DNA of 44,539 bases, from assembly GCA_030065255.1 (NCBI GenBank), contig JASJCX010000015.1:1-44539 (forward strand), read 5' to 3'. Positions within the stretch are counted from its first letter, which is position 1. Every line of letters starts with the position of its first letter. Under the pieces are notes generated by a model, which worked only from the letters and a program-made list of their open reading frames with translations, made no database searches and was not told the DNA's origin. A program made the position numbers and the translations under genes. Origin of the DNA: Calothrix sp. MO_167.B42 (GTDB lineage Bacteria > Cyanobacteriota > Cyanobacteriia > Cyanobacteriales > Nostocaceae). Shown here piece by piece: positions 1 through 18,236 of this stretch.

Positions 1-140
1 CAAATAAGAAACGGAATAATTCTCCTCTTCCTTTTGGGTGTTTTCATTTTTTGCTGAATACCCTCCCATATCGCATCATTGTCTACCGACTCGACGTGCT
101 GATTAGCAGCTTTATTAATATGATTTCTAAACTCATTCAT
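1..140 (-). CDS. Anti-sigma-factor-like protein, N-terminal part (runs off window)
   Basis: Partial gene read leftward from an ATG at 140 and cut by the window edge after about 46 codons. The visible protein begins MNEFRNHINKAA, contains the short motif IWEGIQ, and ends in a basic patch (KRKRRIIPFLI) that looks like the entry to a membrane segment. Its start overlaps the stop of the ECF sigma gene by 8 bp (GGAAATGAATGAG), so the two are probably translationally coupled. In Bacteroidota, ECF sigma genes are commonly followed by a membrane anti-sigma gene whose short cytoplasmic head has this pattern. The function therefore rests on position and on the N-terminal pattern only. Confidence 0.5.
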   Translation of the reverse strand, partial: MNEFRNHINKAANQHVESVDNDAIWEGIQQKMKTPKRKRRIIPFLI

Positions 141-690
141 TTCCAACGCATTTGACTCTTTTACTTTTAGCCGATAGTTTTTCTTTAAGCTTTTTTATAG
201 CTCTGGAATACATGGATCTTGAAGTACCTGGACGGATATTCAGTAATTCTGCAATTTCCTTATGAGAATACCCATCTATGGCATACAAGCCCACAATTCG
301 TTTATAGTTTAATGGTAAATCGTAAATAGCCATCATCAATTCTTCGTATTCGTATTGTATGAGAACTGCCGGATCCTCGGTTTGCGGGGTTATAGTATCT
401 AAAGAATAGCTTTCATATTCATATCGCATTTTTCGATACTTGGATAAGGCAGCATTGGTTACAATTCTTTTCATCCATCCAACGAAAGCCTTTTCTTCAC
501 TTCCTTGGAATTGATTGATTTTTCGATAGACAGATATAAATGCATCTTGCAAAACATCCTCAGCATCTTCTTTATTTCGCGTATACAACTTGGCAACGGT
601 CATAAGAATCCCAGAGTAGTGATATACTAATTCTTTGAACGCTTTCGGGTCACCTTCTTTGAGATTCTTTATGACTATTGCTATATCCAT
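133..690 (-). CDS. ECF-type RNA polymerase sigma factor, Bacteroidota style
   Basis: A 185-residue sigma-70 family protein of normal ECF length. Region 2 is at about residues 20-90: it has the core-binding stretch AEDVLQDAFISVYRKI, and the part matching the -10-recognition helix includes FVGWMKRIVTNAALSKYRK. Region 4 is at about residues 115-170, with a helix-turn-helix reading GYSHKEIAELLNIRPGTSRS followed by RAIKKLKEKL. The GTSRSMYSRA form of the recognition helix is typical of Bacteroidota ECF factors and unlike the cyanobacterial SigG/H/I groups. The gene precedes and overlaps a putative anti-sigma gene. It lies in the left block without HIP1 sites, so a Bacteroidota origin is inferred. 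The regulon cannot be told from the sequence. Confidence 0.85.
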   Translation of the reverse strand: MDIAIVIKNLKEGDPKAFKELVYHYSGILMTVAKLYTRNKEDAEDVLQDAFISVYRKINQFQGSEEKAFVGWMKRIVTNAALSKYRKMRYEYESYSLDTITPQTEDPAVLIQYEYEELMMAIYDLPLNYKRIVGLYAIDGYSHKEIAELLNIRPGTSRSMYSRAIKKLKEKLSAKSKRVKCVGNE

Positions 691-758: not shown

Positions 759-2663
759 TCAATCTTTTATGCACCTGACCGAAAATCCTAGCTCCAACGT
801 GTTGCTTCCAATCGATGCGTCACTTGTATCTGAACCCAAATTCAGCCCCGAGCCTGTCGATCCTGTCCTATCCGATGACCAAAAGGAAGTAGATCTTCCG
901 GTATAGTCCAATGAACCAAACACATCTATTCCTACGGGGAAAGCATTGAACCCACTGCTGTTGGAACCATTTCCTCCGTTTTGCCAATCTTCAGCTGATT
1001 TTAGTGCAAAGCCCGCAGGACCACTTAATTCTAAAAATGAAACCAGGTCTTCAAATTCATCTTTCGATGGTAGGTGCCACCCGTCCGGACATGCTTCTTG
1101 CGCGGAATAATAATTGTATAATCTACCATAATGGTCTGGTACTTCATCGTACTCGATGTCATAAGCATTGGAAATTCCATCATCCGTATCGAATCGAATG
1201 TTTTCTGCTGTCCAGATTTGTCCATTAATTTCTATGACAAGATACTTCTCTCCATCTCTTGGATCCAAGAGTTGACTATTGTCTGCACAGATGGTAACTT
1301 CGCCTACATCAATACTATTGCTCACTGCGAAGTTTATGGATTCACTTGCCACAGCATTTAGTGGGTCTACAATTCTTATGACTACATCAGATTGATCACA
1401 GTAGGAGATATTTCCCGAAAAAGTGAAATTGGAATTCATTGTAAGTATATTATTGAGTGTACCCTGCACAATGCTGACATACGTTTGCTCGGATGGATCA
1501 CTCGCACAGGATACGACAGAGCCAGAAATGGCTGCAAAATTAGATTCCAATAACAGTTCAATTGGATCCAAAATGATGTCTTCATCCGCATCCTGAATCA
1601 TGATAGATACCGCTTCATTGCCACATTTATCCAAGACTGTTACGGTCAAACTCTCATTTTTTGGTACATATCCACAGAAAAACCCTTCCGAGTCGGTTAA
1701 GGAAGATGCTGAGACAAGGTTGGATTGCGCAGTTACTACGACATTCACGTTTGGTATCGGAAACCCTCGATTCTGAACACTTCCCTTCAGGAAGACAAGT
1801 TCATTAGGGATGTCGCAATTCCAAAACGTAAAATGTGGAATAGAGGCTTCGTACATTCCGTTTTCCAGAAAAGCAACTCCTTCTTCTATCCAGCTCCCAA
1901 CGTGCTCATCGAAGTACCACATGGGTATGGATTCAGGGGCATTGGAAAGTAAATCTTCAGGAATTGGAATTTTCGCTTCTACGGATTTTCCATCTTGAAC
2001 TTGAAGTGGATTGCCGATATCGTCATACAATTCTACAGCCATCATGGCAAAGCTACTCAGCACCACCCTGTTTTGACTTGCAGCTATTCCGGAAGGGTTG
2101 CGGGAGATTCCGGTAAGATCACCAGGCATTTGGTTCAATGTACTTGTTTGCGTTGGGTCCAGGTATTTTGCGGCAACAAATACATTGCCGGTAAAGGGTG
2201 AAAGGTCTGAATTCATGATGCTATTGGCTTCAAATTCTAACTCTACATTTTCAAAAGATATTGTATTGCCCGTCATTGCATCAAATTGGCCTATGATATT
2301 TTTGCGAATCAACTCTACGGTTATTATAGATGTTTTACCCGGACTAGGATAGAATCTCCTTGATCCATCAAAAAAGCCATCTTTACGTACAGAGATGAAT
2401 GTACCGGTCGAATACAATTCTTCATTTCGAAATTGAAAAACTCCGTTTTCATCCGTAAAGATCATATCGTCTTCAAAGGTGACCGCAGCACCTTCAATGG
2501 TGTTTCCTTGTGCATCAATTACGGTACCTACTACTGAACTGAGTACTTTTATTTCAGGTTCGGTCGTCGGGGGAGTTGTTATCAATTCGTCGCTATCTTT
2601 TCTACAAGATTGACCAAGTAATGCAATTACAAGCAGTATGGTCAGAGCATTTATCGTTTTCAT
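759..2663 (-). CDS. FISUMP-domain lipoprotein with carboxypeptidase-regulatory-like domain
   Basis: A 634-residue protein starting with a lipoprotein signal (MKTINALTILLVIALLGQSC, lipobox LGQSC), so it is predicted to be lipid-anchored. Residues about 40-115 form a carboxypeptidase-regulatory-like beta-sandwich (VVGTVIDAQGNTIEGAAVTF, then a DENGVFQF turn). A second similar module is near residues 290-350. The last about 150 residues match the Fibrobacter succinogenes major paralogous (FISUMP) domain, with IWTAENIRFD, the GRLYNYYSA stretch, CPDGWHLPSKDE and the closing GFSVRCIKD. This architecture is characteristic of Bacteroidota and Fibrobacteres and is not expected in cyanobacteria. The start lacks a Shine-Dalgarno sequence and is preceded by A-rich CACAAATAA, as is usual in Bacteroidota. 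A precise role is unknown; it is likely a cell-surface binding or structural protein. Confidence 0.85.
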   Translation of the reverse strand: MKTINALTILLVIALLGQSCRKDSDELITTPPTTEPEIKVLSSVVGTVIDAQGNTIEGAAVTFEDDMIFTDENGVFQFRNEELYSTGTFISVRKDGFFDGSRRFYPSPGKTSIITVELIRKNIIGQFDAMTGNTISFENVELEFEANSIMNSDLSPFTGNVFVAAKYLDPTQTSTLNQMPGDLTGISRNPSGIAASQNRVVLSSFAMMAVELYDDIGNPLQVQDGKSVEAKIPIPEDLLSNAPESIPMWYFDEHVGSWIEEGVAFLENGMYEASIPHFTFWNCDIPNELVFLKGSVQNRGFPIPNVNVVVTAQSNLVSASSLTDSEGFFCGYVPKNESLTVTVLDKCGNEAVSIMIQDADEDIILDPIELLLESNFAAISGSVVSCASDPSEQTYVSIVQGTLNNILTMNSNFTFSGNISYCDQSDVVIRIVDPLNAVASESINFAVSNSIDVGEVTICADNSQLLDPRDGEKYLVIEINGQIWTAENIRFDTDDGISNAYDIEYDEVPDHYGRLYNYYSAQEACPDGWHLPSKDEFEDLVSFLELSGPAGFALKSAEDWQNGGNGSNSSGFNAFPVGIDVFGSLDYTGRSTSFWSSDRTGSTGSGLNLGSDTSDASIGSNTLELGFSVRCIKD

Positions 2664-2906: not shown

Positions 2907-5099
2907 TCAATTTTCCTCCAACACACAATCTCCTTCAACGGTCAGGTTACTTCCATTTTCGTTGATTATGGATGGTTGATTCTTGCTCGACGTTATTTTT
3001 ATATCTTTTAATGTCAACGTTCCATTGTTTTCGATCACCCCATCCTCAGAATCTATGTTTTCTATATCAAAACCAACCAAGGATACTGTTTTTCCTGAAT
3101 TAATGATAAACGTAGGCGAACCGCCATTAGACAATACCTTGATATTGTCATTTGGATCAGCCAAAATGGTAATGCTCTGATCGATAATAATGGAGAGAGA
3201 CCCTATGTCGATGGTGCTTCCTGCAATTATGGACTGAAGTTTGATCGTATCACCATCCACGGCACACTCCAAAGCAGATTTTAACGTACCATTACTATCC
3301 GTGAAAGAATTTTTATCCACCGTGATGTCGCAATAGTCATCAACACACAATTCTAAGTTCCAGGAATTCAAAGAGCCTCCATCCTCGTTAAAATCATCGA
3401 ATACGGATAGTTGCCACTGACCCTTTATTTGTTTGGTGTCAAATGCCGTCAAGGGATTATCAGGTTGGTAAGTCAATCCATCTACTGGAGGACAAGGAAA
3501 GTTATCATTGGCAGCTTCATCATCAAAGTTGATATCAAAATCATTTTGTTGAGTGCATGGATCGGACCAAAAAGCCAAACTTGTACCGTCGGGAGCGATT
3601 AAGGTAAAATTGAGATCGGAAATATACGTATGTGTCCCTTCCAGGTCAATGATGTTGAGATCGTTGATAATTCCTTTATCCGCAATAGTCAGCGACGATA
3701 CGATCGTAGGCGTACCTACGGATGAAATTGAGATTGGCAGGTCTTCGGCACCTACCAGAAGACAAGCCCTTGTCTCGAAAGACCACTCCTCCGACCAGGA
3801 AGAGATTCCGCAATCATTAATACTTCGTACGCGCCAGTAATAAGTGGTGGCCAGATCCAATTCCGTAGAAATGGATACCGAAGTTGCAGCCGTGGTACCA
3901 CTGGTTATAATATTACCTCCACTAGGTAAAGTACTTATCTCATATTCATACGACAGGGCTCCAAACTCAGAATTCCATATAAGCAGTGGCTCTGTATCTA
4001 CTCCGATTGTTCCATCCGCCGGCGAAGAAAGTGCTGGATCTGAAGCTATATTCTTTATAAAAAGGCTATAGAATATTTCACGCGTTATACTTCCTGATGT
4101 ACCGGTTACTCTTATGGTAAAATCACCGGATTGGCCATTCATGTTTTTAAGAGTAATTTTCGTGTTGTTGCCTGGCGTTAACGGATTATCAGCAATAGTT
4201 GCTGTAGCTCCTGCCGGCAGATCCGAAACGGTTAAATTTACGGGGTCTAAAAATTCAAGTATCGAGATAGATTCCAGGTTGATGTCAATCGTATCAGCGT
4301 CACAGACTTCACCTGAGGAAGGATTCGTACTAATGATAAATGACGGAGCACCCATATTGATAGTGATGTCAGCATCATTGATATCGAAAAAGTAATTATC
4401 GCTACATTTTACCATAATTCGTGCGGTAGAGGTGGTTCCCAGGGGAACAGTGATCACAGCAGAACCATCATTGGGGGTGGTTGCCAGTTTCAACGGATAC
4501 GTAAGTCCGCTATCGTATGAAATGAAAATATCAACATTTGCGCAACTTACCGGAGATACATCCGCATTTGCAACATTCCAGGTGATCGTTCGTGATTCAG
4601 ATTCCATCCACGTTGCGCCACTATTTTGAGAAGTGACCAGAAATGGTCCGGCATTACCTTCTACATCTAGTGTTACATCTTGTTCGTCGGTACATCCGGG
4701 TGCAAACGTATTGTCTCGCACCGTCACTCGAAAATCCATGTTTCTATCCACGGTAGGCAATACTTCCCACTGAAACGTACCATTGGCAGCAATGGTGGCT
4801 ATATTTGGAAAATAGCGCATCGAATCTGTAGTGGCAAAAATAGATCTGAACATCGGTCCTATGGTATTACCAGGATAAAGGGCCCAAGATGTGTAGAGTG
4901 GTTCAACTTCATTATTTCCGAAGGAATCGACTGATGCATCAGAGTCTCCAATATTGTTAATATCGATGTCGATGTTGGGGTCGATGTTGAAGTCGGGGTC
5001 GAGTAACACATCTTCACCACCTTGAATAGAGGAAAATTCTTCGGCATTTAGCTCTTGTAAATTTTCTAGATTCTCAATTTTTAACTGCTTATTTGCCAT
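2907..5099 (-). CDS. Double-glycine leader fused to Bacteroidota metalloprotease tail (P-domain, beta-helix)
   Basis: A 730-residue protein. Residues 1-28 are an export leader (MANKQLKIENLENLQELN, then EEFSSIQGG) ending in the GG cleavage motif used by C39-peptidase exporters. Residues 29 to about 55 are an acidic DPDFNIDPNIDIDINN linker. From about residue 73 the protein resembles the C-terminal part of Bacteroidota reprolysin-like proteases: FRSIFATTDSMRYFP, WEVLPTVDRNMDFRVTVRD, an Ig-like region, a fibronectin-like domain (YYWRVRSINDCGISSWSEEWSF), a proprotein-convertase P-domain (LEGTHTYISDLNFTLIAPDG through WQLSVFDDFNEDGGSLNSWN) and a beta-helix-like end. No HExxH zinc site is present, so the catalytic domain is missing. 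The start at 5099 is chosen because it begins the leader shared with the paralogue at 5709; the frame is open further upstream to 5171. It is either a real chimeric exported protein or an assembly join near 4880-4950. Confidence 0.7.
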   Translation of the reverse strand: MANKQLKIENLENLQELNAEEFSSIQGGEDVLLDPDFNIDPNIDIDINNIGDSDASVDSFGNNEVEPLYTSWALYPGNTIGPMFRSIFATTDSMRYFPNIATIAANGTFQWEVLPTVDRNMDFRVTVRDNTFAPGCTDEQDVTLDVEGNAGPFLVTSQNSGATWMESESRTITWNVANADVSPVSCANVDIFISYDSGLTYPLKLATTPNDGSAVITVPLGTTSTARIMVKCSDNYFFDINDADITINMGAPSFIISTNPSSGEVCDADTIDINLESISILEFLDPVNLTVSDLPAGATATIADNPLTPGNNTKITLKNMNGQSGDFTIRVTGTSGSITREIFYSLFIKNIASDPALSSPADGTIGVDTEPLLIWNSEFGALSYEYEISTLPSGGNIITSGTTAATSVSISTELDLATTYYWRVRSINDCGISSWSEEWSFETRACLLVGAEDLPISISSVGTPTIVSSLTIADKGIINDLNIIDLEGTHTYISDLNFTLIAPDGTSLAFWSDPCTQQNDFDINFDDEAANDNFPCPPVDGLTYQPDNPLTAFDTKQIKGQWQLSVFDDFNEDGGSLNSWNLELCVDDYCDITVDKNSFTDSNGTLKSALECAVDGDTIKLQSIIAGSTIDIGSLSIIIDQSITILADPNDNIKVLSNGGSPTFIINSGKTVSLVGFDIENIDSEDGVIENNGTLTLKDIKITSSKNQPSIINENGSNLTVEGDCVLEEN

Positions 5100-5194
5100 G
5101 ATGTTTTTCTTAGACCTCAAACTAATTAAAAATTTCGCAGTGTGGGAAGAGCAGCAGCAACATCCCAACAAATTTGCACTACCGTTGAGTATCC
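5100..5194 (-). promoter_or_regulatory. Conserved 95-bp leader-gene upstream region, copy 1
   Basis: It aligns without gaps to 5710-5804 (16 mismatches in 95, about 83% identity by eye). Both copies keep an open frame upstream of the leader ATG, but the substitutions look unconstrained at the protein level, so a shared promoter or 5' UTR is more likely than a coding extension. The stretch GAGGTCTAAGAA upstream of the ATG is kept in both and may include the ribosome-binding region. Confidence 0.5.
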
Positions 5195-5387
5195 CTAGAG
5201 AACCAGTCCACTAATATATGTTGACAAAAACTAAATTAAGTGAACTAGGATAAAACACCTATTTGAGGTGAAATATTTTAGCCTATTTTTTAGCGGTCGT
5301 ATAAAAATAGAATACTAAAATCCCCAATTTTACAAGGCTCCTAACTTGCCTTTTAAGTCAAGTATTTCTAGTGGACAGGTTCTCTAG
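5195..5387. mobile_element. MITE, 193 bp, with 19-bp terminal inverted repeats
   Basis: The left arm CTAGAGAACCAGTCCACTA (5195-5213) is matched by the right arm at 5369-5387, whose reverse complement is CTAGAGAACCTGTCCACTA (18 of 19 identical). The 155 bases between carry no ORF of note. CTAG at each tip could be part of the repeat or a palindromic target duplication. The element sits exactly where the similarity between the two leader-gene upstream regions ends (5194), so its insertion, or recombination at it, defines that boundary. Confidence 0.75.
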
Positions 5388-5418: not shown

Positions 5419-5709
5419 TTATAAGATGACAGGACACCACTTAATTTCTATTTTTTTCTCCCCATCGTAAAAAACATAAGTTTCACATGGAGGGGGGATG
5501 TAGCAAGGATCGGGATAGATTAGAATTGGCTCATGGACATCAATTGGCCGATCAACTGGCTTATAATCAATTGATGAGACTTCGCCTGTTGCAGATATTG
5601 CAGATGCGGAGCTTGTTGCAGTTAAACCACCTTGAATAGAAGAAAACTCTTCGGCGTTTACCTCTTGTAAATTTTCTAGGTTCTCAATTTTTAGCCGCTT
5701 ATTTGGCAT
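5419..5709 (-). CDS. Double-glycine leader precursor peptide with Pro/Cys-containing cargo
   Basis: A 96-residue precursor. Residues 1-28 are a leader (MPNKRLKIENLENLQEVN, then EEFSSIQGG) nearly identical to that of the neighbouring chimeric gene, with the GG at residues 27-28 as the predicted C39 cleavage point. The 68-residue cargo begins LTATSSAS. It has three cysteines in its second half, a proline-rich patch (YPDPCYIPPPCETY) and ends EIKWCPVIL. No known bacteriocin family is recognised. The exporter with the matching peptidase is encoded at 15138-18236 on the same strand. The start at 5709 is chosen by alignment with the paralogous leader; the frame stays open to 5781. Export is inferred; activity is unknown. 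Confidence 0.75.
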   Translation of the reverse strand: MPNKRLKIENLENLQEVNAEEFSSIQGGLTATSSASAISATGEVSSIDYKPVDRPIDVHEPILIYPDPCYIPPPCETYVFYDGEKKIEIKWCPVIL

Positions 5710-5804
5710 GATGTTTCTCTTAGACCTCAGGTCAATTAACAATTTCGCAGTGTGGGGAAAGCGACAGTCACATCCAAACAAATTTGCACCACTGTTGAGT
5801 CTCC
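5710..5804 (-). promoter_or_regulatory. Conserved 95-bp leader-gene upstream region, copy 2
   Basis: Paralogous to 5100-5194. Similarity stops at 5804; the sequence beyond it is unrelated to what follows the MITE next to copy 1. It probably contains the promoter and 5' UTR of the precursor gene. Confidence 0.45.
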
Positions 5805-11316: not shown

Positions 11317-11607
11317 TTAGTAGGTAGCAGAATTAGCTTCAGAGAAAGATTCAGAAGAACCGTCAGTGGTTTGTGTCCATGCATCACTTTGAGAAACGGT
11401 GTTGTTACCAAGAGCATCAGCAGAAGCAGTAGCAGTAGCAGTATTACCAACTGCATCAGCGTAACCACTGATGTTAACCTCAACATCAACATCAACATCA
11501 ACATCAAGATCCTTATCTAGCTCTAAGTTGCTATTGAAGGTAACACCACCGCCACCGATGATTTCTTCGTTGGTAACTTCTAAGTAGTTTAGGTCATTAA
11601 TAATCAT
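11317..11607 (-). CDS. Double-glycine precursor with acidic DV repeats
   Basis: A 96-residue protein with a short leader (MIINDLNYLEVTNEEIIGG) and a run of four glycines at residues 18-21, so C39 cleavage after a GG pair is predicted. The cargo has an alternating Asp-Val block (LDVDVDVDVEVN, residues about 34-45) and then an Ala/Thr/Ser/Asn-rich tail (TATATASADALG, SSESFSEANSATY) without cysteines. The leader type recurs in heterocystous cyanobacteria near C39 exporters. The ribosome-binding site CAGGAGAAAAACCA precedes the ATG. The gene is on the exporter strand, downstream of the parvulin-like gene. The Ser/Thr-rich tail would suit O-glycosylation by the nearby GT41 protein (inference). The cargo could be structural or adhesive rather than toxic. 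Confidence 0.8.
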   Translation of the reverse strand: MIINDLNYLEVTNEEIIGGGGVTFNSNLELDKDLDVDVDVDVEVNISGYADAVGNTATATASADALGNNTVSQSDAWTQTTDGSSESFSEANSATY

Positions 11608-12033: not shown

Positions 12034-12813
12034 CTAAGACTGATTCACTAATTTATCTTTTTGTTCAATTAAATTTGGATCCATCTGAATAGCTACATCT
12101 AAAAATTTCAGCTCTCGGTTTAACCAATCATTGAATGATTCAGAAATAATTTTATCTCTTAATACCTCATCTAGTTCCGGCTGAATTATCTCTTCTACCC
12201 AAATTAAATACACACCTTTGGGTGTACTAATTGGTTTAATAATCCCTGGTAAGGAAGTAGCAAATATAACCGAAGCAATCTCTGGGCGAAAATCTTTACG
12301 ATATTTAACTCCTTGATATCCATAAGTACGACGAAGTTCTATATCCTGTATATATAAACGAGCTATTTCTGGAAAAGTGATTTCGCCTTCTTCCAGTGCA
12401 TAAAATAACTCGAAAGCTAAATCTCTATCCTCGAAAACAACTTCATACGTAACGGCAGCATCATAATCTATCCGATTCTCATAAAAGAATTTTTCAATTT
12501 TAGTCGAAAATAAATGATTTGCTAGTTTCTTAGAAATCAAACTGTTATGAACTAATTCTTCAAAATCCATCACAGACAAATGATGTTTGTCTAACCAAGC
12601 CCAGGTATCTTTAGCTGTAGCCAGTTTTTTCTCTAACCTGACTTTATCGCACTCTGACTGCAATTCTGCTTCTGTGACTTCAATACCAGCTTTATTAGCT
12701 GTTTCCAGGATAATTGTTTGAGATGCTATGGCTTCTATAACACTAGGTATCTGACAGGATAATTTGAGCCTGTGAATAATGTCTGAAATTGAAATGGTTA
12801 GATGTTCGGGCAT
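12034..12813 (-). CDS. SurA/parvulin-like peptidylprolyl isomerase
   Basis: A 259-residue protein. The N-terminal half is helical and SurA-like (residues about 20-110, IEVTEAELQSECDKVRLEKK). Residues about 130-225 fit a degenerate parvulin (PpiC) domain: LFYALEEGEITFPEIARLY, RPEIASVIFATSLPGIIKPI, then STPKGVYLIWVEEI. No signal peptide is evident, so it may act in the cytoplasm or be exported otherwise. Genes of this type are regularly found beside HlyD and C39-exporter genes in cyanobacteria, where they are thought to chaperone substrates. It lies downstream of HlyD on the same strand. Isomerase activity is uncertain. Confidence 0.75.
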   Translation of the reverse strand: MPEHLTISISDIIHRLKLSCQIPSVIEAIASQTIILETANKAGIEVTEAELQSECDKVRLEKKLATAKDTWAWLDKHHLSVMDFEELVHNSLISKKLANHLFSTKIEKFFYENRIDYDAAVTYEVVFEDRDLAFELFYALEEGEITFPEIARLYIQDIELRRTYGYQGVKYRKDFRPEIASVIFATSLPGIIKPISTPKGVYLIWVEEIIQPELDEVLRDKIISESFNDWLNRELKFLDVAIQMDPNLIEQKDKLVNQS

Positions 12814-13516: not shown

Positions 13517-15067
13517 TTACATTTCTAAACCATCTTTTTGTAATTTCTTAAATGGATCTAAAACAAAGTCAATAATTCGACGCTGGCGAATAATAACTTC
13601 AGCGTTTGCTGTTTGACCAGCAGTTAAATAAACACGTTTTTCGCCATTATCGACATACTGTTGCTTTAAAGTAATTTCTAATTCAAAACTTTCACTATTT
13701 CCTTGGGGTGTTTGTTGCATTTTTGAATCAGGAGATACCCAAGTTACTTCTCCTTCCACAATCCCGTACTCTTGGAAAGGATAGGCATCAAACTTGACTT
13801 TAACTGGCATTCCCACCTTTAAGAAGCCACTATCTTGTATGGGCATTTGGGCTTTGAGAACAACATCAGCATTTTTGGGTGCAATTTGGGCAATCCGTTG
13901 CCCTGGTTGTACTACTTCTCCTGATTTACTAAATGGCAATTCAAAAATCACACCATCAATGGGCGATCGCACAATCCGTTGTTTTAACTGTATATTTAAA
14001 GATGCTATCTCACCTTTGGTTTGAGCGATTTGGGATTCTAGTGCGGTAGCTTGCTTATCTATATCTTTGAGTTGTTCTTGATTCTTCAAAATTGACAATT
14101 TACCAGCTTGGAGTAAGCTTTGATAGCTATTTTTCTCTTCTTGCAGTTGCAGTTTTGCTTGTTCAATATCAGCCTCTAACTGGTTCATTGTCGCCTGAAA
14201 ACGGCTGTTTTCTTCTGTTAGGCGTAATTTTGATTGTTTAAGGTCAGATTTGGCTTTTTCATAGAGTCGTTTACTTTCTTGTTCTTGCTTGAGTAGTTCA
14301 TCAACTTGATTGATAGAAACAGCACCATCTTTCATCAGGTTGCTAAACCGTTGGACTTGTCTAGAATCTATAGTTAAACGCTTTTGAGAGGCATTTTTAT
14401 CATTCAACGAGGCATGAATTTGTTGATTGACTTGATTGACTAATGCTTGTTTTTCTAGCCTTTGTAGATAATATATACTTGTTTTAGCAGCCAGATTTTG
14501 TTTTGCCTGGTTGACTTTGGAGAGTTTCTCTAAGGCTTGGGATTGGTTTTGTTGTTCTTGGGTACTAAGAGTTAACTGAATTTGATTTTTGATTACATCT
14601 AATTGTGCCCTTTGATTTAGAAATCCAGTCAGCTTTGCCTCGGCTTGTTGCAGCTGTGTTTGTAAAACATCAGCATCGAGTTCTAGTAAGGTTTGTCCTG
14701 CTTTGACAGTGTCACCTTCTTTTACATTGACAAGTTTCACACTCCCAGCAGCTAGGGAATCCAATTTTTGGGTTGCGCCTTTAGGCTCTATCCGTCCCTT
14801 AGCACTTCCCGTTTCATCCACTTTAGACATTGTTGCCCAGGGTATACCAAGGGCTGCAAAGAAAATTAGGGCATACAATACACCATGAGTCCACAACTTG
14901 GGTAAAGCATCTAATAACTCTTTTGTAGCATAGTGGAGGTCATTGTTATCATCTACTGGGAGGTTTTCATTGCCTCCAGTATTTTCATCATCAACTTTGT
15001 CGTGTATGTACTCGTCATATTCTTTTGGTGCAAGTACAGATGAAGAATTGGAAGATCGATATGGCAT
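13517..15067 (-). CDS. HlyD-family membrane fusion protein of a type I exporter
   Basis: A 516-residue periplasmic adaptor. A cytoplasmic N-terminus of about 60 residues precedes one membrane helix (VLYALIFFAALGIPWATMSK). A split lipoyl-like domain follows (AAGSVKLVNVKEGDTVKAGQ with LLELDADVL, residues about 108-135). A long coiled coil occupies about residues 140-370. The second lipoyl half (QRIVRSPIDGVIFELPFSKS, then GEVVQPGQ) and a beta-barrel domain (KVGMPVKVKFDAYPFQEYG) close the protein. It would link the ABC exporter at 15138-18236 to a TolC-type outer-membrane channel, which is not encoded here. The gene follows the exporter by 70 bp on the same strand, so one operon is likely. Confidence 0.92.
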   Translation of the reverse strand: MPYRSSNSSSVLAPKEYDEYIHDKVDDENTGGNENLPVDDNNDLHYATKELLDALPKLWTHGVLYALIFFAALGIPWATMSKVDETGSAKGRIEPKGATQKLDSLAAGSVKLVNVKEGDTVKAGQTLLELDADVLQTQLQQAEAKLTGFLNQRAQLDVIKNQIQLTLSTQEQQNQSQALEKLSKVNQAKQNLAAKTSIYYLQRLEKQALVNQVNQQIHASLNDKNASQKRLTIDSRQVQRFSNLMKDGAVSINQVDELLKQEQESKRLYEKAKSDLKQSKLRLTEENSRFQATMNQLEADIEQAKLQLQEEKNSYQSLLQAGKLSILKNQEQLKDIDKQATALESQIAQTKGEIASLNIQLKQRIVRSPIDGVIFELPFSKSGEVVQPGQRIAQIAPKNADVVLKAQMPIQDSGFLKVGMPVKVKFDAYPFQEYGIVEGEVTWVSPDSKMQQTPQGNSESFELEITLKQQYVDNGEKRVYLTAGQTANAEVIIRQRRIIDFVLDPFKKLQKDGLEM

Positions 15068-15137: not shown

Positions 15138-18100
15138 TCAACTTACTTGAGATAATTGTTGTTGATTGAGATAGTAATAATGACCTTGTTTAGAGATTAA
15201 TTCGTCATGATTGCCACTTTCTACCAATATCCCGCGGTCCAAAACCAGAATTAAATCTGCATTGCGTACCGTTGAGAGTCGGTGGGCAATAATAACGCTG
15301 GTACGTCCTTTCAAAATAGTCTTCAGATTGTTCTGAATAATCCTTTCTGATTCTGTATCTAGATGGCTAGTAGCTTCATCAAACAGCAACAAACGGGGAT
15401 TACCCATTAGAGCGCGGGCTATGGCTATACGCTGGCGTTGACCCCCAGAAAGCATACCACCACCTTCACCGATTTTGGTTTCGTAACCCAAGGGTAATTG
15501 CTGGATAAATTCATCTGCACCAGCTAAGTTTGCTACTTGAATGATGTCGTCTAACGAGGCTTCTGGATGAGCTATGGCAATATTTTCCCGAATGGTGCCA
15601 CCAAACAGAAATGTGTCTTGATCTACAACCCCCACTTGGGAACGAAGTGATTGCAGGGAAATCCCATTAACATCATGACCGTCAATGAGCACTTTGCCAT
15701 CTGTCGCAGGATATAAACCTAAAATTAATTTACTCAAGGTTGTTTTGCCAGAACCACTACGTCCCACAAGTGCCACCATTTGTTCTGCTTTGATTTCAAA
15801 GTTAAGATTTTCTAGAACGTTAGTCTTGCTTTCTGGGTGATAGCGAAATGTGACATTTTGAAAGTGAATATTACCGCGCAGTTGACCCAAGGTTTTGCGG
15901 GGTTTATTGTGCAAATCTTCCTCTGGTTCTGCTTCTAGCACATCATTGAGACGTTCTACAGAGATCACGATTTCTTGAAATTGAGTCCACAATCCTGAAA
16001 ACCTCTTAAAAGGACCCAACACATTACCCACCAACATATTAAAAGCAACTAATTGTCCAACGGTGAGTTCTCCTTGAATTACTTGCCATGCTCCAAACCA
16101 CATCAATCCTGTACTGGTAAAGGTTTGAATGGCACCACCAATCATTGAAAGGCGGATGCCAATTATTTTGGAATGAAAGCGTTTTTTAACCACATTATTC
16201 AGCAATTCTTCCCAACGCCAACGTACAGTTTGTTCGATTGACAATGAACGAACTGTACGAACTCCTGTAAGAGATTCGATCAGATAGCTTTTTTGTTCAG
16301 CTCCAGCATTAAAAACCTCCCTAGATATGCGGCGCAAAATGCCTGTGCTAGCCAAAGCCAGAATAAAAAATGGTGGTACAGTCAATAGCACAAATAATGC
16401 CATTTTCCAGCTATACCAAAACATTAGGCTCAGATAGATGACTAATGTCAGCATGTCTAGGACTATTGACAAACTTTGTCCTGTCAAAAAGTTGCGAATT
16501 TTTTGATTTTCAGCGATACGAGAAGTAATGTCGCCGACATAACGTGACTCAAAATAAGAAAGAGGCAAGCGTAAGGTATGTTTGATAAAGCCTACTATTA
16601 AAGAGACGCTAATCCGATTGGCTGTATGGGCCAGCAAATATGACCGTACTGCATTCATGATAATGCTGAACAAACCAAAAACCAGCATCCCCAAACCAAC
16701 GGCGTTTAAGGTAGCTAGGCTGCGCTGCACTAAAACTCGGTCTAGTAATAGCTGGGTAAACACCGGTGTAACCAGTCCAAATAACTGCATTATCACCGAA
16801 GCAATAAAGATTTCCAGCAGTACCTTATAGTGGGGTTTGACTAATTCAAAAAACTTCCACAATCCGACAGTATCTGACTTGGTATCTTTGAGTAAAGATG
16901 TGGGTTGTAGAAGTAAGGCATAACCAGTCCAACCGGCTGCAAATTCCTTACGGGTTAGTTGGCGTTGACCAATAGCAGGATCGCCAACAATCACTTTTCT
17001 TCTGCTAATTTCATAGACAACGATAAAGTGATTACCTTCCCAGTGAGCGATCGCTGGTAGGGATTGTTCAGCAAATTTTTCTAAGGTTGCTTTCACTGGA
17101 CGGGTGGCAAAACCTAGGTTTTCTGCTGCTGATGCCAGGGCACGTAAAGAAGCACCACTACGTCCGACATTGGTCATATCTCGCAAACGGTTGACACTAA
17201 AACGTTTGCCCCAGAAACTACTAATCATTACTAAACAAGCAGCACCGCAGTCGGAGGCACTGTGCTGGGCATAGTAAGGATATTGCTTTGTAAACCTTCC
17301 CCACCAATGCCCCATTTGCACTTTGGGACCAGGAAAGTAAGGACGGGTTTTCTTGGGTGGTGGTTGTGATACTTGTTCTTGCCCTGGAAAAGGAATAATT
17401 TTTTGAGATGAGCCCAAACGTTCAATTTTGTTACGTTTGAGCCGTGATTTTGATTTGAGGGCTGGGCGACGATTCTCTGGTTGGTAGTCACCCAAGGGGC
17501 GATCAACAGTGACAAATTCTGCTAATTCTGGGCAGTGTGACAATGCAGTTTGCCAATGCTCATCCCTAAGGATGTAAGCAATGCTTGGTTCTTCTATCTG
17601 CCAATTTCTCTGGGGTAAATCACCACAAATTTTCCCTGGTGTTAAGGAATTACCGTCTTGTAAAAATTTGCCCCGATAAAGTATGCATAATTTGGGAACT
17701 TCATGCACAGATAGTTCGTCTGGGCTGCTTAGACAACAACGTTCAAATAAAGAGAAAGCTTTGAGCAATCCTTCTACTTGCGATGTGTGCTCGGGGAATT
17801 GTGAAGTTTGACGACACAACAACATTAAATCCCACATCTCTGCCTTGTGATAGAGGCGATCGCTTAATTGGGCATATTTCTCCATCAAGGGCTGCAATTC
17901 TTCTTGGGGAAGGTAACACAGCTTTAAATTGTGAGAAGTTTTAGCAATATAAGGCAAAAAGTCCGCTTCCTGGAACAGAGTCATTTCACCAAATGCCATT
18001 CCCGCTTCAAGGGTAGTAATTAAATTCTCAAAATTGTCTAGAAGTCTAACTTTACCTTGAAGAACAATGTAAATACCTTTATCAACACCATCCGCCTGCC

Positions 18101-18236
18101 AGAATAATTTTGCTAATGGCGGCTCTAGGATTTGGATTTTTTGGACACAGTTTTTAACATCGATTTCTGCGACAGAATCACCTAAGAAGTCATGAATTAT
18201 TTCATACAGACTTCTCTGAGAAAAGATTGATATCAT
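15138..18236 (-). CDS. C39-peptidase ABC exporter with N-terminal cNMP-binding-like domains
   Basis: A 1032-residue peptidase-containing ABC transporter. Residues about 20-125 form a cyclic-nucleotide-binding-like domain (GIYIVLQGKVRLLDNF, GMAFGEMTLFQEADFLPYIA), and a weaker second one is at about 160-250. The C39 peptidase is at about 318-440, with catalytic Cys330 in ASDCGAACL, His403 in EGNHFIVVYE and Asp419 in GDP. The six-helix membrane domain follows (about 460-750), then the ATPase with Walker A GRSGSGKTT, signature LSGGQRQRIA, Walker B LLLFDEATSHLD and the AHRLST H-loop. It cuts leaders after GG and exports the cargo. The domain order resembles HetC of Anabaena, but the HlyD partner and the leader genes next door argue for a peptide exporter. 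All catalytic residues are present. Confidence 0.93.
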   Translation of the reverse strand: MISIFSQRSLYEIIHDFLGDSVAEIDVKNCVQKIQILEPPLAKLFWQADGVDKGIYIVLQGKVRLLDNFENLITTLEAGMAFGEMTLFQEADFLPYIAKTSHNLKLCYLPQEELQPLMEKYAQLSDRLYHKAEMWDLMLLCRQTSQFPEHTSQVEGLLKAFSLFERCCLSSPDELSVHEVPKLCILYRGKFLQDGNSLTPGKICGDLPQRNWQIEEPSIAYILRDEHWQTALSHCPELAEFVTVDRPLGDYQPENRRPALKSKSRLKRNKIERLGSSQKIIPFPGQEQVSQPPPKKTRPYFPGPKVQMGHWWGRFTKQYPYYAQHSASDCGAACLVMISSFWGKRFSVNRLRDMTNVGRSGASLRALASAAENLGFATRPVKATLEKFAEQSLPAIAHWEGNHFIVVYEISRRKVIVGDPAIGQRQLTRKEFAAGWTGYALLLQPTSLLKDTKSDTVGLWKFFELVKPHYKVLLEIFIASVIMQLFGLVTPVFTQLLLDRVLVQRSLATLNAVGLGMLVFGLFSIIMNAVRSYLLAHTANRISVSLIVGFIKHTLRLPLSYFESRYVGDITSRIAENQKIRNFLTGQSLSIVLDMLTLVIYLSLMFWYSWKMALFVLLTVPPFFILALASTGILRRISREVFNAGAEQKSYLIESLTGVRTVRSLSIEQTVRWRWEELLNNVVKKRFHSKIIGIRLSMIGGAIQTFTSTGLMWFGAWQVIQGELTVGQLVAFNMLVGNVLGPFKRFSGLWTQFQEIVISVERLNDVLEAEPEEDLHNKPRKTLGQLRGNIHFQNVTFRYHPESKTNVLENLNFEIKAEQMVALVGRSGSGKTTLSKLILGLYPATDGKVLIDGHDVNGISLQSLRSQVGVVDQDTFLFGGTIRENIAIAHPEASLDDIIQVANLAGADEFIQQLPLGYETKIGEGGGMLSGGQRQRIAIARALMGNPRLLLFDEATSHLDTESERIIQNNLKTILKGRTSVIIAHRLSTVRNADLILVLDRGILVESGNHDELISKQGHYYYLNQQQLSQVS

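Follow-up and report, generated by a model that had tools for sequence, protein, structure and literature searches.

An in-frame junction between a cyanobacterial double-glycine leader and a Saprospiraceae protease tail at a Calothrix contig end is probably an assembly chimera

Gene clusters for double-glycine (bacteriocin-type) peptides have been described from cyanobacteria, and in the sections of that survey drawn on here those of groups I, II and VI combine a long-type C39 exporter with HlyD and SurA components (PMC3140520). A second described object with a bearing on the present case is the chimeric contig of metagenome assemblies; the authors of GUNC, in the part of their article used here, regard misassemblies as relatively rare compared with mis-binning (PMC8201837). 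The window, that is, the whole stretch of DNA that was analyzed, is one entire contig (C333) of 44,539 nucleotides from Calothrix sp. MO_167.B42, the genome of which comprises 384 contigs and is 80% complete; the feature under study lies at a contig end. Its main features are collected in Table 1. They include the C39 exporter, which a previous interpretation made from the DNA alone (hereafter the sequence-only reading) had placed in the same locus as the leader and which was indeed found on the contig, and the HlyD-type adaptor; genes for an RTX-repeat protein and for a TPR protein that matches glycosyltransferase 41 lie on it as well.

Table 1. Positions of the features discussed, in coordinates of the window
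Feature	Position	Strand	Basis or remark
Anti-sigma-like gene start, cut by contig end	1-140	-	likeness by eye to the post-sigma ORF of L166-L168
ECF sigma factor, Saprospiraceae type	133-690	-	PF04542, PF08281
Bacteroidota-type lipoprotein, CarboxypepD_reg and FISUMP domains	759-2663	-	PF13620 and PF09603, over cut-off
Saprospiraceae part of ORF (residues 78-730), C-terminal part of M12B reprolysin-like protease	2907-4868	-	62-67% identity to five homologues
Estimated breakpoint, between residues 76 and 79	4866-4874	.	identity drop against five homologues
Cyanobacterial part of ORF (residues 1-76)	4872-5099	-	leader (1-28), Asp-rich stretch and PLY...P stretch; cut by join
Repeated promoter-leader cassette, fusion copy	5016-5194	-	87% identity to 5626-5804, 179 nt
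Intact twin peptide gene, 96 aa, ending in ...WCPVIL	5419-5709	-	same-kind peptides in G002 and G003
Double-glycine-type peptide gene	11317-11607		same contig
SurA/PpiC-like gene	12034-12813		same contig as C39 exporter and HlyD
HlyD-type adaptor of exporter	13517-15067	-	PF13437, TIGR01843
Long-type C39 peptidase ABC exporter, cyclic-nucleotide-binding N-terminus	15138-18236	-	PF03412, PF00664, PF00005, PF00027

The ORF in question occupies positions 2907–5099 of the minus strand; it begins with an ATG at 5099 and is closed by a stop codon at 2907–2909, and its 730 codons contain no internal stop. The frame is open from a double-glycine leader into a Bacteroidota protease tail, and the hybrid reported by the sequence-only reading is confirmed and, as a sequence, real. 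Residues 1–28, MANKQLKIENLENLQELNAEEFSSIQGG, end in Gly-Gly and are accompanied by a C39 exporter in the locus, as in a C39-exported double-glycine precursor; the short core that relatives carry is absent from the ORF, same-genus peptides being 89–109 aa long. The leader is 86% identical over residues 1–29 to that of the twin gene and 83–86% identical to those of the closest same-genus peptides. Behind it, residues 29–58 are rich in aspartate, DPDFNIDPNIDIDIN, and Asp-rich cores are also found in the double-glycine peptide encoded at 11317–11607 and in such peptides of G002 and G084. A further stretch, EPLYTSWALYP, bears a weak likeness, judged by eye, to the QPLYGVIVDP and AMYGAVIPP of Nif11-type peptides on another contig of the same genome (C262) and in G002. 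The 179-nt repeat spans both the upstream region and the leader, and its second copy heads the intact 96-aa peptide gene; the near twin that had been noticed about 600 bp away thus lies at a distance of 610 bp. Just upstream of the cassette of the fusion there is a 193-bp MITE-like element (5195–5387) with 36-nt inverted ends that are 75% complementary. This element was considered as a multicopy trap for the assembler and rejected; it has a single copy in the genome and is situated away from the join.

The cyanobacterial side has clear relatives. DNA of the contig matches a locus in another genome of the same genus (G002) at 75–84% identity and in the same order of double-glycine peptide, TPR gene and leader-peptide genes. 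In full, the G002 locus runs from a double-glycine peptide through RTX and TPR genes to three peptides of 96, 95 and 89 aa, each with the same kind of leader, and the fusion is absent from it. The same kinds of peptides occur in G003; no leader match was found in G001, likewise of the same genus. A homologue spanning the junction, the search for which had been proposed along with the initial claim, was found in none of 149 other cyanobacterial relatives, and the fused form was seen in none of them. Same-genus clusters (L056, 6584–10463; L055; L057) encode proline-rich double-glycine-leader peptides of about 90 aa that end in C[YP][VA]IL, and a locus from another cyanobacterial family (L052, G130:C416) has four different double-glycine peptides in a row, with a KIENLENLQE-like leader. 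Behind the peptides of G002 lie two genes (362 and 331 aa); no match to either is listed in the genome of the window. Near one end of C262 there are DNA matches to a gene of the G002 locus, which we take to be radical-SAM-like from its cysteine motif, and to a Nif11-type peptide. The idea that the genome retains a displaced native continuation of the peptide locus was set aside for want of proof, the 362- and 331-aa genes of G002 being without a listed match.

The tail has an equally clear, and entirely different, set of relatives. Residues 78–730 are 62–67% identical, to within two residues of the C-terminus, to proteins of G372, G383, G310, G414 and G217, whose open frames measure 1122–1154 aa. 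The Saprospiraceae locus L005 comes from G150; of 398 genomes drawn from the family to which G150 belongs, 378 gave a match with an E-value of 1e-20 or better when residues 74–730 were used as the query. A P-domain (PF01483, residues 485–583, E-value 2.5e-9) exceeds its cut-off in the tail and is also present in the proteins of L140 and L142, which are two of the five loci, this C-terminal part being aligned with 30 homologues; matches to Ig-, cadherin- and Fn3-like domains stay under the Pfam cut-offs and are weak. Of the domains that the sequence-only reading had listed, the P-domain is secure, while the Ig-like and Fn3-like ones are represented by weak matches. That reading was right in saying that the tail has no catalytic domain: the Reprolysin_4 domain is present in L140 and L142, and neither PF13583 nor its relatives were detected in the ORF. 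There is no frameshift in the tail. One cyanobacterium has a relative of this protease family (L013, G148:C99), an M12B reprolysin-like protease that combines RTX repeats with a catalytic domain of its own and differs at its C-terminus.

The position of the join was estimated from an alignment of 31 rows, 30 of them homologues, each from a different one of the 378 matched genomes; all 30 continue upstream of residue 78. Mean identity between the ORF and its five nearest homologues is 0.13 over residues 29–61, 0.00 over 62–77, 0.83 over 78–100 and 0.78 over 101–150, and 0.69, 0.57, 0.64 and 0.60 in the remaining segments after residue 150. The corresponding values for the five homologues among themselves are 0.80, 0.89, 0.87 and 0.79, followed by 0.74, 0.62, 0.65 and 0.61; in residues 401–560 the tail is 64% identical to the homologues and these are 65% identical to one another. 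The change from 0.00 to 0.83 indicates that homology begins abruptly at residue 78, near nucleotide 4868. The start at about residue 73 given by the sequence-only reading is thus shifted slightly, the Bacteroidota homology itself being present, and the join, at about nucleotides 4868–4871, falls some ten bases beyond the interval that had been singled out, in a block that is conserved among the homologues. In the 1116-aa protein of L140 the join maps to about residue 467, just after a sub-threshold PKD_4 match (residues 413–456, profile positions 1–45 of 85) that was not found in L142, so that the break probably lies inside a PKD-like domain. With gaps allowed, local alignment carries the match back to residue 62 in three of six loci, which locates the join to within about 15 residues. 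The shared triplet Asn-Glu-Val (residues 63–65) was not preferred as a sign of upstream homology, since none of the five close homologues, when kept in register, agrees with the ORF over residues 62–77. A 5-mer change point at 4969 (4894–5039 within 5 nats) is coarser and falls slightly to the right of the homology break, to which we gave more weight. No run of N is present at the join, and the switch between the two unrelated source genomes is sharp and away from a gene boundary.

These identities bear on the possibility of an old fusion maintained by selection, with the tail now serving the cyanobacterium as an exported adhesin. All that speaks for such a history, which we consider highly improbable, is an open frame behind an intact leader. 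In every segment the tail is just 0.01–0.05 less identical to the five homologues than these are to one another, and it consequently displays no clear trace of relaxed or adaptive evolution; the synonymous codons of residues 76–174 lean to the left-hand genes, under a model whose training set included the later part of this ORF, and the absence of a junction-spanning match in the relatives surveyed also tells against it.

Sequence of foreign type extends well beyond the tail. From the join to base 1 of the contig, about 4.87 kb, everything is Bacteroidota-type, and the single gene to which the sequence-only reading had limited the foreign DNA has to be extended by a lipoprotein, a sigma factor and an anti-sigma-like gene that reach base 1. 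The lipoprotein is 41–44% identical to genes in L166–L168 from residue 1 to residues 461–494, mainly before its FISUMP domain. Saprospiraceae loci led to two sets of genomes, of which 4 of 4 and 9 of 10 have a match to the lipoprotein; there is none in the 149 other cyanobacterial relatives. Over residues 1–164 the sigma factor is 59–61% identical to the sigma gene that follows immediately on the lipoprotein gene in G354, G283 and G178. These three genomes (L166–L168) have a Saprospiraceae triplet of lipoprotein, ECF sigma factor and an anti-sigma-like ORF of 470–474 aa. The triplet at the left end has the same order and orientation as in all three loci, the gene order of the source group thus being kept to the contig end; a tblastn search with the anti-sigma-like fragment gave no match at 1e-3. 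The triplet is not found beside the protease in any of the six protease loci fetched, in stretches that reach about 2 to 9 kb downstream (under 2 kb in L143), so the adjacency of the left-hand genes to the protease is without an example in another genome. L145 has a sigma factor near the protease, but one that is 34% identical.

Nucleotide composition changes along with homology. A first model, trained on 20 stretches of the same genome and on four Saprospiraceae loci (1-kb windows, k=4), scored the first five 1-kb windows of the contig at -14.8 to -25.0, on the Saprospiraceae side, whereas to the right of 5 kb 35 of 39 windows were positive; in leave-one-out trials 19 of 20 own stretches were positive and three of four Saprospiraceae loci negative, L010 falling on the wrong side. 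A second model, built on nine Saprospiraceae loci of closer homology, gave the left pieces scores of -3.9 to -11.1, and the right-hand 1-kb windows were positive, as own genome, in 37 of 39 cases. The median of the Saprospiraceae windows (-18.6) is below the left pieces, seven of 100 own-genome windows are negative, three of them scoring no higher than -6.7, and a single window in the right-hand part of the contig, at -15.2, is lower than any left piece. The expected contrast in k-mer profile across the join was accordingly observed, with the left 5 kb Saprospiraceae-like in five of five windows under both models; composition supports the split and by itself is not proof of it. As to the converse arrangement, a Saprospiraceae contig with a cyanobacterial insertion, nothing beyond the mixture itself suggests it, the synteny with G002 contradicts it and 37 of the 39 right-hand windows score as own genome; its probability is practically nil.

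Taken together, the leader–tail fusion is best explained, with a probability of roughly 0.87, as an assembly chimera, a Saprospiraceae fragment on a cyanobacterial contig, since one assembly error and one accident of frame suffice to produce it, whereas a fusion in the cell needs an insertion of at least 4.87 kb that begins within a foreign protease gene, brings a foreign regulatory triplet with it, has diverged hardly at all from its homologues and is met in none of the 149 other relatives. The hybrid sequence, its sharp break, the foreign genes and their lack of a counterpart in the relatives searched are direct observations; that the assembler, rather than the cell, made the join is what we infer. 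Misassembly with a Saprospiraceae-like contaminant had been offered by the sequence-only reading as the rival to its headline, and it turned out to be the better supported of the two, through the sharp break and the foreign genes that run to the contig end; the headline, a foreign cargo captured by a peptide exporter, found no support, with the junction unmatched among the relatives and every aligned homologue extending upstream. Several observations count against a chimera. Frame and strand are both preserved across the join, and chance alone would preserve the frame about once in three times, as had been pointed out, or once in six if strand is included; the tail is free of frameshifts and the join of N runs; misassemblies are described as relatively rare (PMC8201837); composition taken alone is indecisive; the two marker searches revealed no other Bacteroidota material in the bin, TIGR04183 having no match in the genome and FISUMP a single one, the lipoprotein described here; and the protease and the triplet are not neighbors in the six loci.

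The open frame and shared strand, the intact leader and promoter cassette beside the twin, and the exporter on the same contig would also be compatible with a real and very recent insertion of at least 4.87 kb of Saprospiraceae DNA into the peptide locus, with the frame continued by luck; the C39 exporter could then be predicted to cut at Gly-Gly and export the protease tail with its Ig/P-domains. We consider this unlikely, as no such insertion is seen in the 149 other relatives, the tail starts within a conserved block of its homologues, further Bacteroidota-type genes follow in Saprospiraceae order and cyanobacterial sequence does not resume before the contig is over, the nine window proteins scanned include neither integrase nor transposase, and the composition is Saprospiraceae-like. 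In addition, C39 exporters are known for short peptides. If the fusion is an assembly chimera, a cyanobacterial contig with an ordinary double-glycine-peptide export locus would have ended within the second peptide gene, and this end would have been wrongly joined to a piece of Saprospiraceae DNA, 4.87 kb or more in length, that begins within an M12B protease gene. The leader would most likely head a normal short exported peptide, of about 90 residues by same-genus comparison, whose core was cut by the join; the Saprospiraceae cell would secrete an ordinary protease some 1,120 residues long, and the fused protein would be nonexistent.

The main value of the case is as a warning that domain capture can be mimicked where sequences of two phyla meet in frame at a contig end; here, about 4.9 kb of Saprospiraceae-like sequence is filed under a cyanobacterial genome. 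It also illustrates that a join can be placed closely without reads, by comparing both sides with the close homologues of each parent. Were the join true, it would be a striking capture of cargo by a peptide exporter. A fresh, exportable in-frame leader–adhesin fusion, caught before its composition changed, is a doubtful prospect; it would provide a natural test of whether C39 exporters move large folded cargo, the C39 domain being predicted to cut after Gly-28 and about 700 residues to be exported.

In comparison with known systems, the locus on the contig agrees with the cyanobacterial clusters, as far as the sections cited describe them (PMC3140520), in its C39 exporter with a cyclic-nucleotide-binding N-terminus, its HlyD, its SurA-like gene and its short GG-leader peptides, and the ORF differs from them in having a foreign tail of about 650 residues in place of a short core. 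From residue 78 to its end the same ORF resembles the Saprospiraceae M12B reprolysin-like proteases, with their beta-sandwich region and P-domain as in L140 and L142, but it is without their N-terminal part and catalytic domain. Set against the chimeric contigs of metagenomes, in the portion of the description used here (PMC8201837), it differs in that the join is in frame, and it is like them in its two sharply separated origins, in a break that lies off the gene boundary and in the location of the foreign part at the contig end.
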